Positions 1 through 40,821 of a stretch of 45,730 bases of DNA are shown in pieces. Under the pieces are notes generated by a model. That model was not told where the DNA came from. It worked only from the letters and a program-made list of their open reading frames with translations, and ran no database searches. Every line of letters starts with the position of its first letter. Within the stretch, counting starts at the first letter, position 1. This DNA is from Campylobacterales bacterium. GTDB lineage: Bacteria > Campylobacterota > Campylobacteria > Campylobacterales > Nitratiruptoraceae. The stretch is from contig JALWIX010000038.1 of assembly GCA_027082175.1 (NCBI GenBank), forward strand, positions 13,103 to 58,832, given 5' to 3'. The translations under genes were made by a program, and so were the position numbers.

Positions 1-115
1 GCAAAAACCGTAAGGGTTTTAGCAAGCAAACTGCTTTGCTTGCGTGCCTTTGCGAAAGCTTGTAGTATATGCGAGTTTGAAACTCAAGGAGTTTCGAGAG
101 CGAGCAAAGGAGTGG
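1..115. repeat. Hairpin-rich non-coding segment upstream of clpX
   Basis: Three short inverted repeats lie in tandem: AAAACC/GGGTTTT near 4-20, GCAAGCAAA/TTTGCTTGC near 23-43 with a 4-nt loop, and GAAACTC/GAGTTTC near 79-96 with a 3-nt loop. Frame 1 is open to about base 142, but its translation looks like translated repeat and does not resemble the end of LpxA, the usual upstream neighbour of clpX in this phylum. I see no gene here. It may be the 3' end of an intergenic repeat that starts outside the window. Confidence 0.45.
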
Positions 116-6639: not shown

Positions 6640-6732
6640 AGGTTGAAGGTAGAAGGGAGAAGGAAGAAAGAAGTAAGAAGTAAAAAGAGAGAAAAAAGAG
6701 TTCTTCAACCTTCATCCTTCAATCTTCAACCT
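6640..6732. repeat. Purine/pyrimidine dyad block inside a gene start
   Basis: The block is bounded by a perfect 9-bp inverted repeat, AGGTTGAAG at 6640-6648 and CTTCAACCT at 6724-6732. The left part is nearly all purine plus T with no C. The right part (from about 6700) is pyrimidine plus A with no G after the first bases. It resembles the other dyad blocks in the window, but here it lies in frame within the start of the TsaC-like gene. Confidence 0.6.
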
Positions 6733-7164
6733 GACAAAATATATCTTGTTCAGACCGAAACTACCGTAGGTTTTTTATCTCAAAACGCTAAAAAGTTGGC
6801 AAAAGTTAAAAAAAGAGAGCCTAACAAACCTTTTTTAATCTCCATAGATAGTTTTAAAAGGCTAAAAGAGTTTGCAAGAGTTCCGAAAAAGTATAAAAAG
6901 ATGGTTAGAAGAGCCCAAAAGACCACTTTTGTCTATCCAAATAAAAAAGCACTCAGAGTTATAAAACAGGAAAATCATCTTAGATTTTTAAAAAAATTTG
7001 GCTGGATGTTTTCTACTAGCGCAAATGAGTCTGGGAAAAGATTTGATTATCTATTTGCGTCTGAAAATGTTGATATTATAGTAGAAGATAATAGAGGATT
7101 TTTTGAAGGAAAACCCTCAAAACTGATAAAACTAGGTAAAAATAGAGCGAAAAAGCTAAGATAG
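6643..7164 (+). CDS. Sua5/YciO/YrdC (TsaC-like) family protein
   Basis: This is probably a threonylcarbamoyl-AMP synthase, the first step of the tRNA t6A modification, or a close YrdC-fold relative. The YrdC domain runs from about residue 31 to the end (173 residues). It keeps the opening TETTVGF, a K-x-x-K-R motif (KVKKREPNKP) and the STSANESG motif, so the Lys/Arg/Ser/Asn nucleotide-binding set appears present. The start is TTG, with AAGGAG at 6631-6636 in the end of carB. No ATG, GTG or TTG lies between it and the conserved domain. As a result the first 30 or so residues, Lys/Arg-rich then Ser/Gln/Pro, are the translation of a dyad repeat and not conserved domain. The domain is shorter than E. 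coli TsaC. Substrate is inferred. Confidence 0.75.
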   Translation: MKVEGRRKKEVRSKKREKRVLQPSSFNLQPDKIYLVQTETTVGFLSQNAKKLAKVKKREPNKPFLISIDSFKRLKEFARVPKKYKKMVRRAQKTTFVYPNKKALRVIKQENHLRFLKKFGWMFSTSANESGKRFDYLFASENVDIIVEDNRGFFEGKPSKLIKLGKNRAKKLR

Positions 7165-15774: not shown

Positions 15775-15862
15775 TGAAGGAGATAATGTGGTAAGGTGGT
15801 AAGATGATAAGAAATACCTAATTCCTTTTCTTATAATCTAATGTCCAATGTCTAATATCCAA
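15775..15862. repeat. Degenerate dyad block upstream of lon
   Basis: The left half (about 15775-15815) contains repeated GTAAG/GATAA words with no C. The right half (about 15816-15862) contains CCAATGTCTAATATCC-type words with very few G. GATGATAAGAAA pairs with TTTCTTATAATC across the centre. A TATAAT in the right half may be the lon -10. It belongs to the same class as the blocks at 123-205, 6640-6732 and 40262-40405. Confidence 0.5.
15832..15837 (+). promoter_or_regulatory. Candidate -10 box for lon
   Basis: TATAAT lies 52 bases upstream of the lon ATG, inside the right arm of the dyad block. There is no heat-shock operator of the CIRCE type and no HspR-type repeat that I can recognise around it. 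Confidence 0.4.
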
Positions 15863-32240: not shown

Positions 32241-32439
32241 AAACCTGAGCGGTGCGCTACCCGCGATATGGGGGTCCGACAATAGCACTATGGAGGGAAA
32301 TGTAGGACTGTGGTGTGTCGGTGGCTTCGCTTGAGCCCGGGACGCCGGGCGAGAAGTTGCCGCCTAAAGCAGTTCTCATTCCCTCATTTTTGGTCATTTG
32401 GGACCATTGCATAGCGTGAACGCCCGCTCGGGTTTTTTT
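32241..32439 (+). ncRNA. ssrS: 6S RNA (SsrS; purD RNA motif)
   Basis: This is a GC-rich island in an AT-rich gap. The ends pair (CCTGAGCGG near 32244 with CCGCTCGGG near 32424) and TGCGCTA pairs with TAGCGTG inside them, giving a long rod of about 195 bases. The apical part (GAGCCCGGGACGCCGGGCGA, then AGAAG and CTAAAGCAG) resembles the E. coli 6S apical hairpin and the segment after it. A seven-T run follows the closing stem, as in an intrinsic terminator. The place directly before purD matches the epsilonproteobacterial 'purD RNA', which has been identified with 6S RNA. 6S RNA mimics an open promoter and holds sigma70-RNA polymerase in stationary phase. Ends are approximate. Confidence 0.8.
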
Positions 32440-38058: not shown

Positions 38059-40254
38059 ATGCACTGTACATTTGAATTTGATATGAATAATATTAAAGAG
38101 AGATACGATATAGGAAAAGTTGCGAAACAGGCAAACGGAGCAGTTTTGCTTCAAAGCGGCAAAACTACTATGCTAGCTACCGTCGTAATGGACAAAACTC
38201 CTGTGGAAGAGGATTTTTTACCTCTTACCGTTCAATATATAGAAAAATCGTACGCAGCTGGTAAAATTCCCGGAGGTTTCGTAAAAAGAGAGCAAAAACC
38301 CGGAGATTTTGAAACTTTAACTTCTAGAGTCGTAGATAGGGCTCTTAGGCCGCTTTTTCCTAAAGGTTTTTTAAATCCTGTGGTGATTACGGTGATGGTT
38401 TTAAGCGTTGACGAGGAGTCTGACCTTCAAGTTCTAGCATTAAACGCGGCTTCGGCGGCGCTTTACGTTTCCGATATCCCTATAAGAACCGCGGTTAGCG
38501 GTTTGAGAGTGGCTAAAATTGGCGATGAGTTAGTTTTTAATCCAAAACTTAGCCAACTTAACGAGAGCACTTTAGACCTTTACCTTGCCGGTACGAAAGA
38601 TGATCTTTTGATGATAGAGATGAGATCGATTGCCACTTACGAGCCTGAAACTCTACCTTCGTCTATGGTTGATCCGATGCTTGATCCAACGCTTGCTCAA
38701 GAGGTGATTTTGGTAAAAAATCCAAACGCATATCAAGAAGAGGAGTTGGCTCAAATAATTTTACAGGGCAAAGAAGCTATAAATATCGCCTGTCAAGAGT
38801 ATGAGAAATATTTTATAGAGGTTGCCAAGCCTCAGATTGAAGTTGATATAAAACCTGAAAAGATAGACGAAAATATATGGACGTATATAGATGAGATATA
38901 TAAAGATGATATATATAAAGCTATAAACTCTATGGCAAAAAGCGAAAGAGCCGAAGCGCTGACGGATATCGTAAAAAAGATAACCCAAGACGAGATAGCA
39001 AAAGAGCAGGAGTGGGATGAGGAGACTATATTAAAAGTCGTGGATAAATATAAAAGAAAGATAGTTAGAGATATGATTTTAAAAGAGAGAAGAAGAGCAG
39101 ACGGAAGAGGACTAAAAGATGTAAGAGAGATAACTATCGAGACAAATATTTTGCCTTCTGCTCACGGCTCCTGTCTTTTTACTAGAGGTCAGACTCAAGC
39201 TTTAGTAGTTTGTACGATAGGTGAAAAAACAGCTGCTCAGATGTATGAGCTTTTAACTAGCAAAGGGCCTGAATATGAGCATTTTATGGTGCATTATAAC
39301 TTTCCTCCTTTCAGTGTTGGAGAGGCAAGGCCTATCGGAGCTCCGGGAAGAAGAGAGCTTGGTCACGGGAATTTGGCAAAAAGAGCTTTAGAACCGGTAG
39401 TAGATATGCCGGAAGATAAAACGATTAGACTTGTTTCGGAGATTTTGGAGTCAAACGGCTCTTCTTCTATGGCCACCGTTTGCGGCGGAGCTTTGGCTCT
39501 GAAGGCTGCTAATATAGAGATTACCGATCTTGTAGCTGGCGTAGCTATGGGGCTTGTTATAGAGGGAGATGAGTATGCGATTCTTACGGATATAATGGGT
39601 TTAGAAGATCATGACGGAGATATGGATTTTAAAGTGGCGGGAACAAAAGACGGCATTACCGCTTTGCAGATGGATATAAAGCTAGGTGGTATTGAAGCTT
39701 CGATTTTAAAAGAGGCGCTTTTGCAAGCAAAAGAGGCTAGGTTACATATATTGGATATTATGGAAGATGCCGCTAACAAGATAGAGATAAACGAAGAAAA
39801 TTTGCCAACGACCGAAACTATTACCGTACATCCAAGTAAAATAGCCCAGATTATAGGTCAAGCTGGAAAAACTATAAAAGAGATTATCGAAAAGTTTGAG
39901 GTAAGCATAGATATAGAAAGAGATAAGGGAAAAGTAAAAGTAACCGGAAAAAGCAAACCTAAAGTGGTTGCGGCATGCGAACACATAAAAACGATTACGC
40001 AAAAAGAGGAGCCTGAAATACCTCAATTTAAAGAGGGAGAGATTTTAAAAGGTAAGATAAAAAGAATCACAAATTTTGGCGCATTTGTTGAACTTCCAGG
40101 AGATATAGACGGATTGCTTCATATTTCAAAATTGTCTTCCGGTAGAGTTAATAGAGTTGAAGATGTGGTTAATATCGGCGATGAAGTTGAGGTAGAAGTT
40201 TTATCTCAAAAAGGACACAAGATAGAGCTTGCTTTGAGGCAGGTTTTTAAATAG
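38059..40254 (+). CDS. pnp: Polyribonucleotide nucleotidyltransferase (PNPase)
   Basis: PNPase is the phosphorolytic 3'-5' exoribonuclease of mRNA decay, active as a trimer. It has 731 residues. The first RNase PH domain (KIPGGFVKREQKPGDFETL) is followed by a helical linker (about 240-320). The second, catalytic RNase PH domain shows SHGSCLFTRGQTQ-like sequence (here SAHGSCLFTRGQTQ) and MDFKVAGTKDGITALQMDIK. The KH domain (TVHPSKIAQIIGQAGKTIKE) and C-terminal S1 domain (GEILKGKIKRITNFGAFVEL) complete it. AAGGAAGAG precedes the ATG. It is the last gene of the purD-to-pnp cluster. Confidence 0.97.
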   Translation: MHCTFEFDMNNIKERYDIGKVAKQANGAVLLQSGKTTMLATVVMDKTPVEEDFLPLTVQYIEKSYAAGKIPGGFVKREQKPGDFETLTSRVVDRALRPLFPKGFLNPVVITVMVLSVDEESDLQVLALNAASAALYVSDIPIRTAVSGLRVAKIGDELVFNPKLSQLNESTLDLYLAGTKDDLLMIEMRSIATYEPETLPSSMVDPMLDPTLAQEVILVKNPNAYQEEELAQIILQGKEAINIACQEYEKYFIEVAKPQIEVDIKPEKIDENIWTYIDEIYKDDIYKAINSMAKSERAEALTDIVKKITQDEIAKEQEWDEETILKVVDKYKRKIVRDMILKERRRADGRGLKDVREITIETNILPSAHGSCLFTRGQTQALVVCTIGEKTAAQMYELLTSKGPEYEHFMVHYNFPPFSVGEARPIGAPGRRELGHGNLAKRALEPVVDMPEDKTIRLVSEILESNGSSSMATVCGGALALKAANIEITDLVAGVAMGLVIEGDEYAILTDIMGLEDHDGDMDFKVAGTKDGITALQMDIKLGGIEASILKEALLQAKEARLHILDIMEDAANKIEINEENLPTTETITVHPSKIAQIIGQAGKTIKEIIEKFEVSIDIERDKGKVKVTGKSKPKVVAACEHIKTITQKEEPEIPQFKEGEILKGKIKRITNFGAFVELPGDIDGLLHISKLSSGRVNRVEDVVNIGDEVEVEVLSQKGHKIELALRQVFK

Positions 40255-40261
40255 TTGTAGC

Positions 40262-40405
40262 TGAATGTATAGTATGAGAAGAGTAAGTGGATAGTGTAAG
40301 TGTAAAAGGTTATTATCCCTTGCCACTTATCCCTTGCTCAATTCCCAATGCAACACCACCCAACTACTTAACCACTATACCAAAATTCCAATATCCAATT
40401 TATCT
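40262..40405. repeat. Largest degenerate dyad block, upstream of atpE
   Basis: The left part (40262-40315) contains GTAAGTGGATAGTGTAAGTG-type words with no C. The right part (about 40316-40405) contains CCACTTATCCC, CCACCCAACTACTTAACC and CCAATATCC words with very few G. GTAAGTG in the left part pairs with CACTTA in the right. This occupies most of the 261-bp pnp-atpE gap; no gene is seen in it. Confidence 0.55.
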
Positions 40406-40423
40406 GTTTTTAACAATATTTTT

Positions 40424-40429
40424 TATAAA
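40424..40429 (+). promoter_or_regulatory. Candidate -10 box for atpE
   Basis: TATAAA (followed by AT) lies about 90 bases upstream of the atpE ATG, giving a leader of roughly 80 bases that contains a stem-loop. Confidence 0.4.
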
Positions 40430-40438
40430 ATCACACTT

Positions 40439-40480
40439 GCAAAGTGATAAGTAGGGATACGCAAGCCGAACGGACTTTGC
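40439..40480 (+). promoter_or_regulatory. Stem-loop in atpE leader
   Basis: GCAAAGT (40439-40445) pairs with ACTTTGC (40474-40480) around a 28-base loop. A competing small hairpin CACTT/AAGTG (40434-40438 with 40442-40446) shares bases with it. Both lie between the -10 and the strong AGGAGG at 40505-40510. A regulatory or stabilising role is possible but untested. Confidence 0.3.
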
Positions 40481-40515
40481 ATATACGATTTTTCTCAAAT
40501 TTTTAGGAGGTTTTT

Positions 40516-40821
40516 ATGAAGAAGCTGTTTTTTCTTTTGGTAGCGTTTGTAGGTTTTGCTTTTGCTGGAGATGGTGAGAGCATGATTCAAGCATACTCTG
40601 TTGTTGCAGCTGGTATCGGTCTTGGTATCGCCGCAGCAGGTGGCGGTATAGGTATGGGTCAAACAGCGGCGGCTACTATTGCTGGAACCGCTAGAAATCC
40701 TGGTCTTGGCGGAAAGCTAATGACTACGATGTTTATCGCTTTGGCGATGATCGAAGCTCAGGTTATCTATACTCTTGTTATTGCGCTTATCGCTCTTTAC
40801 GCAAATCCGTTCTTAGGTTAA
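40516..40821 (+). CDS. atpE: F-type ATP synthase c subunit
   Basis: This is the proteolipid that forms the rotating c-ring of the F0 motor. It has 101 residues including an N-terminal signal-like segment (MKKLFFLLVAFVGFAFA) that is typical of Campylobacterota c subunits. Helix 1 is glycine-rich (GIGLGIAAAGGGIGMG), the polar loop is ARNPG and helix 2 carries the ion-binding Glu80 in LAMIEAQVIY. The Gln and Ser ligands of sodium-type rings are not in register, so proton coupling is more likely. A consensus AGGAGG precedes the ATG. Other atp genes are elsewhere. The gene stands alone between its own leader and a terminator, as fits a subunit needed in many copies. Confidence 0.97.
   Translation: MKKLFFLLVAFVGFAFAGDGESMIQAYSVVAAGIGLGIAAAGGGIGMGQTAAATIAGTARNPGLGGKLMTTMFIALAMIEAQVIYTLVIALIALYANPFLG

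Follow-up and report, generated by a model that had tools for sequence, protein, structure and literature searches.

Blocks of G-containing words followed by C-containing words in the gene gaps of a vent bacterium of the Campylobacterales

We analyzed a 45,730-nucleotide stretch (the window; G000:C38:13103-58832) of the 1.83-Mb draft genome of a vent bacterium of the Campylobacterales (G000; GenBank assembly GCA_027082175.1), in which the pnp-atpE gap contains a block of short words that contain G and no C in its first half, and C and almost no G in its second half. The class to which this block belongs is real: its members are spread unevenly among relatives, stand directly after stop codons, keep one order of halves and turn over between sister species. 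On balance, we lean toward regarding the blocks as DNA-level insertions that grew by slippage and template switching, and as kin to the paired heptamer arrays of Xanthomonas, but built from many words. Two sister species, G002 and G003, also carry the blocks, and the genes that flank them are approximately 90-97% identical. Genome statistics were obtained from stretches that cover 284 kb of G000 (15.5% of the genome), plus stretches of the sister species.

An abundant class of blocks with a fixed order

Blocks were scored for G without C followed by C without G, with dinucleotide-preserving shuffles of the same stretch (n = 2000) as the control. The flagged block lies on the forward strand and starts a few bases past the pnp stop codon (40252-40254). 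Its G-word half (40262-40312, GTAAGTGGATAGTGTAAGTG...) contains 16 G and 0 C. Its C-word half (40313-40405), composed of the words CCACTTATCCC, CAATTCCCAAT, CCACCCAACTACTTAACC and AAAATTCCAATATCC, contains 33 C and 3 G and ends upstream of an A/T-rich stretch and a conserved leader preceding atpE (start 40516). A BLAST search of the flagged block against its own genome returned two clear relatives (L027 and L028), and the remaining matches look like chance. Three further blocks of the window lie on the same strand. The block before clpX (106-209) consists of TTATTGG/TATTAG words and then CCAATAAACCAATAACTAATATAC words, with 8 G and 0 C followed by 7 C and 0 G in positions 123-205. At the junction of carB with the gene of a Sua5/YrdC protein (6640-6732), GAAGGGAGAAGGAAG... 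is followed by CTTCAACCTTCATCC... (22 G and 0 C, then 12 C and 0 G), and 14 G and 0 C precede 11 C and 2 G between a YfiO (BamD-like) gene and lon (15775-15862). An earlier note on this DNA had claimed a switch from a C-poor to a G-poor half in these four blocks. The claim was borne out, as the scores of the clpX, sua5, lon and flagged blocks were reached by 0, 0, 1 and 0 of 2000 shuffles, respectively.

The blocks are far more numerous than shuffled gaps would predict. With a score of at least 12, 16 intergenic blocks were found in the 284 kb of G000 against 0.52 expected, and stricter cut-offs gave 11 against 0.18 (at least 14) and 9 against 0.12 (at least 16). Extrapolation from the 284 kb gives roughly 100 blocks per G000 genome. 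At the cut-off of 12, G003 and G002 yielded 6 blocks against 0.48 expected and 13 against 0.40, and samples of G001, G004, G005, G006 and G009 contained 0-1 block each. The earlier note had staked the class on a comparison with shuffled intergenic sequence, and the blocks survived it when it was run on this sample of the genome.

Each block is put together from degenerate words of 7-8 bp repeated in tandem. A period of 7 was the commonest among intergenic arrays in the three species (24 of 44, 16 of 30 and 45 of 64), with a period of 8 next. Frequent words include AATTCCN, AATATACC, AACCACTC, CCAATATA, CCACTTAA, CACTCA, CTTCAACC, AATGTCT and AATGACT, and the same word order recurs at different loci (e.g., GTGTGAGT / TTAATTTA / CCACTTAACC / AAAATTCC); no core common to all blocks was seen. 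Where pure G-word and C-word arrays are neighbors, G preceded C in all 20 cases (7, 5 and 8 in the three sister genomes), and the reverse never occurred. By score, at a cut-off of 14, three blocks had the reverse order (C then G) compared with eleven for G then C, and part of these reverse-order scores arise because the C-half often precedes a Shine-Dalgarno sequence. Thus, the suggestion of a repeat class holds, with many blocks that vary between species, share words and keep the G-then-C order.

The placement of the blocks was counted in gaps no shorter than 40 bp. Among codirectional gaps, 31 of 134 held a block, as did 5 of 23 gaps between convergent genes and 5 of 53 between divergent ones; the divergent gaps were poorer in blocks than the other two classes together (36 of 157; Fisher p 0.04), with the orthologous gaps of the three species counted separately and hence not as independent events. 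The blocks had been described as lying just before a gene, which is true of many codirectional ones that extend to the Shine-Dalgarno sequence or promoter region of the next gene. More usually, what defines their position is the stop codon of the preceding gene, since codirectional blocks mostly start no more than ~10 bp past it. This placement would also suit a C-half that serves as a putative bidirectional Rho loading (rut-like) site, being nearly G-free, C-containing and regularly spaced on either strand, and the arrangement of a G-half and then a C-half on both strands is consistent with that reading. However, several common words (CTTAAC and AATGAC) contain no YC dinucleotide, some blocks lie within tight gene pairs, and one sits in a kept reading frame. 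We consider Rho loading very unlikely.

Turnover between sister species and the question of pairing

Comparison of orthologous gaps between sisters, which had been proposed as a check, revealed gaps that were empty, similar or filled with different words. Among 112 gaps compared between G000 and G003, 9 carried similar blocks, 1 carried different blocks, and 5 blocks each were confined to G000 and to G003, several of these calls being borderline or not such blocks (e.g., the tRNA gap and the purD RNA gap). The pnp-atpE blocks of G000 and G003 have words in common and differ by whole units (one versus three TACTTAAC). In this gap, G002 carries another block, and G005, G001 and G004 lack one. 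The gap before lon measures 120 bp in G000 and 184 bp, with other words, in G002; G003 and G005 have no block there, with gaps of 34 and 30 bp, respectively. The gap that separates moeA from a thioredoxin-like gene, both named by reading their translations, is empty in G000 (13 bp) and G002 (15 bp), and in G003 its 256 bp consist of two G-then-C units. At C98 12020, G000 and G003 hold unlike blocks with flanks that are 93-95% identical.

The carB-sua5 block has a different fate. It had been listed as intergenic, which does not fit its position in frame inside the Sua5-like open reading frame (6643-7164), where it would encode a 29-codon N-terminal extension. In the outgroups G001, G004 and G009, sua5 starts directly at the carB stop codon. 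In G000, G003 and G002, the block sits between the codons for LK and PDKIYL and measures 87, 90 and 84 bp, respectively. The insertion is free of stop codons in the coding frame in all three species, the other frames mostly carry stops, and the encoded extension is Lys/Arg-rich in each. The lengths differ by multiples of three, which suggests that the frame has been kept by selection. At least this one block has apparently been absorbed into a protein, to judge from the reading frames. G005 carries G-words only (GTAATTGGGAATAAGTAATTGGGAATTGGGAATT) at the same site, an independent insertion.

The halves had further been described as loose reverse complements of each other, and a retained RNA duplex had been offered as one explanation. 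Folding was compared with shuffles in which both halves retain their own composition, in 46 blocks from the three species. The mean z was -2.2, with 52% of the blocks below -2 and extremes that include -9.0 and -6.9. Pairing beyond composition is therefore a property of approximately half of the blocks, including the clpX block (z -2.4), and not of the flagged block (z -0.7, no better than expected) or the lon block (z +1.6, worse than the shuffle).

These folds raise the possibility that the blocks act as RNA hairpins, either at 3′ ends or separating the genes of an operon, such as terminators, RNase barriers or BIME-like elements. Their position directly past stop codons and their rarity in divergent gaps point the same way, and the G000 block at C13 11752 occupies the place of an intrinsic-terminator-like hairpin of G003. 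The divergence between the sister species speaks against it. In the alignable gaps of G000 and G003, paired and unpaired sites changed equally often (53 of 862 versus 56 of 861). Among the changed pairs, 26 were broken and 24 still paired; of these, 22 had one altered site and 2 had both sites altered, and one of these 2 pairs lies in a tRNA gap. Pairing was retained in 405 of 431 pairs compared with 403.0 in the shuffle (p 0.11), in a set that includes some low-scoring gaps. We thus saw no sign of selection on stems, at modest power. A conserved RNA hairpin was rejected on the equal divergence of stems and loops and on there being no more than two compensating changes. Moreover, several blocks abut the next Shine-Dalgarno sequence in gaps that are only 10-15 bp long or overlapping in relatives, and termination there would silence the next gene. 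The flagged block, beyond its lack of excess pairing, has no intrinsic terminator, as a search for a stem-loop followed by a T run at 40200-40600 found 0 sites; this candidate was rejected for that block. Given also that one block lies in an open reading frame kept in three species, a retained duplex is not supported, and we regard functional hairpins as an unlikely explanation of the class.

A second repeat and other features of the window

A separate repeat occupies positions 1-106 of the window on the forward strand and adjoins a G-then-C block here and in the sister genomes. In its other copies, it spans ~200 bp (GAGCGAAGGCAAAGCGAAGC...AAAATC..GATTTTCGGTT), and it was next to a G-then-C block in 5 of 5 copies inspected closely. 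Copies beyond the window were located at L054 10810-11002 and 17416-17620, L071 3250-2974 (minus strand), L051 6037-6231, L208 12846-13041 and L241 13289-13133. The repeat had no Rfam match at the gathering score in the window, L051 or L054. Upstream of clpX, identical stretches of 106 bp (L036 12897-13002 and window 1-106) flank a 100-N scaffold gap, and this duplication probably reflects an overlap in the assembly or the collapse of a repeat.

At the gathering score, Rfam matched only purD RNA and tRNA in the whole window and nothing at the blocks, and known RNA families were rejected as the identity of the blocks on this ground. The purD RNA motif (RF01069) lies at 32302-32433, scores 89.6 bits and is kept in G003, G002 and G005. 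In G002, blocks of G- and C-words stand on either side of the motif.

Relation to known repeats and a putative origin

The closest known system is the GGGAATC heptamer arrays of Xanthomonas, which form 70-75 convergent pairs per genome with one array per strand and have no known function (Rehm et al. 2015, PMC4692102). They are rare between divergent genes, and their length and sequence vary among related species (PMC4692102). The blocks described here resemble them in heptamers, convergent pairing, order and placement, with G-words on the coding strand near the stop codon. However, one G-quadruplex-forming word dominates in Xanthomonas, whereas a single block here mixes many words, 8-mers among them, that are AT-rich and have short runs of G. 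The halves may differ in words, and sister species can have one whole block in place of another. No word with GGG tracts dominates these blocks; therefore, we filed them as a variant of the Xanthomonas-type arrays and not as the same repeat.

STRR is the name given to heptamer repeats of the Nostoc type. The GGGGA(T/C)T heptamers of Nostoc and other cyanobacteria are intergenic and dispersed, with few paired arrays and no known function (PMC4692102). They share with the blocks the dispersed intergenic heptamer units and a similar distance rule to open reading frames, and differ in their longer pure arrays, other words and scarcity of pairs. The TAACTGA heptamers of Beggiatoaceae, cyanobacteria and Bacteroidetes change length by insertions and deletions in 7-nt steps (MacGregor 2015, PMC4679880). 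They are likewise intergenic direct repeats that are patchy over phyla and sometimes lie within mixed heptamer assemblages, but only one inverted repeat of them was found in the BOGUAY genome (PMC4679880). The description of the present blocks as uncharacterized thus needs tempering, because Xanthomonas has paired heptamer arrays of the same placement and order, and Nostoc has arrays that are mostly unpaired (PMC4692102); the multi-word form is new.

The order of the halves extends beyond these species. The word AATTCCNAATTCCNAATTCC occurs 31 times in G000, 53 times in G003 and 15 times in G002, and its reversed control does not occur. It is present in 12 of 397 Campylobacterota and also in records from many phyla. 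In Nitratiruptor-like genomes that are otherwise nearly without such arrays, AATTCC/GGAATT heptamer arrays appear to lie within coding sequence (L077 in G009 and L078 in G007). We surveyed the order for the AATTCC word in 52 genomes chosen for the word alone, counting pattern matches, so that some sites were counted more than once. GGAATTNGGAATT then AATTCCNAATTCC against the reverse gave 6:0 in G000, 10:0 in G003, 6:0 in G405 (Calditrichaeota), 19:1 in G415 (Acidobacteria) and 1:0 each in G422 and G413. The opposite order, with the AATTCC array first and the GGAATT array second, was found in Flavobacterium G427 (0:3, L232) and Bacteroidetes G433 (0:3, L231). The G-then-C order is strong within genomes and common to several phyla, and it is not universal.

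REPs share a conserved core, and many genomes pair them with a RAYT. The blocks resemble REP/BIME as dispersed inverted repeats between genes, but we saw no core common to them and found no RAYT. Their dispersed copies, their clean empty sites, the word order common to different loci and the separate repeat that adjoins several of them would all fit non-autonomous mobile elements of the REP/RAYT, MITE or retroelement type that are moved by an enzyme. In contrast, a Y1 transposase (RAYT; Y1_Tnp, PF01797) had no match in G000, G002 or G003, and a reverse transcriptase (RVT_1, PF00078) had none in G000 or G002 and one in G003. Neither constant ends nor a target duplication was seen, and blocks of orthologous gaps can consist of unrelated words. 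Mobility of this kind is quite improbable to us. A REP/RAYT and reverse-transcriptase origin was rejected on the absence of matches to Y1_Tnp in the carriers and to RVT_1 in G000 and G002; these negatives weigh against those two routes and not against other, unknown enzymes.

The fixed order, in which the G-carrying strand enters the gap in the 5′ to 3′ direction from either side, could also reflect a general process at DNA ends. If the 3′ ends at a break in a gap were extended with short G-containing, C-free words in a telomere-like manner and the ends were then joined, the unrelated words of the two halves, the single polarity and the recurrence across phyla would all be explained. The two Bacteroidetes with the opposite order and the lack of RVT_1 in two of the three carriers count against this process. 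We know of no enzyme that adds telomere-like words in gene gaps. We give this idea very little credence.

Growth by slippage and hairpin templating, the remaining option of the earlier note, is favored because the unit-step length changes and the mirrored words fit it. Polymerase slippage has been cited as the proposed cause of the seven-unit size by Rehm et al. (PMC4692102), and replication template switching can make and maintain hairpins (PMC8794818). In our putative mechanism, new words would be gained between the stop codon and the ribosome-binding site, where insertion presumably harms least. Arrays would lengthen or shorten one word at a time via replication slippage, template switching between the halves would sometimes make one half mirror the other, and recombination would copy stretches of words from block to block. 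The majority of blocks probably have a nearly neutral effect on the cell. Several points weigh against this picture. The slippage and template-switching events are deduced from sequence comparison. Near-neutrality would rest on the lack of conserved pairing at ~6% divergence, in a test of modest power, and the blocks may have a role in expression. Furthermore, slippage by itself does not account for the fixed G-then-C order, which may reflect a founder effect combined with transfer of words from block to block, or some feature of the making enzyme. Taking all of this together, we hold slippage and template switching to be a somewhat probable origin of the blocks.

Overall, our data extend a little-studied class of bacterial repeats to another phylum, and reveal that its G-then-C order is independent of any one word and of quadruplex formation. 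At the carB-sua5 junction, a block has apparently come to encode protein. The sister genomes, in which a gap can be occupied, empty or occupied anew, offer a setting in which to watch the origin of such blocks, and the polarity rule across phyla bears on how such arrays are made.
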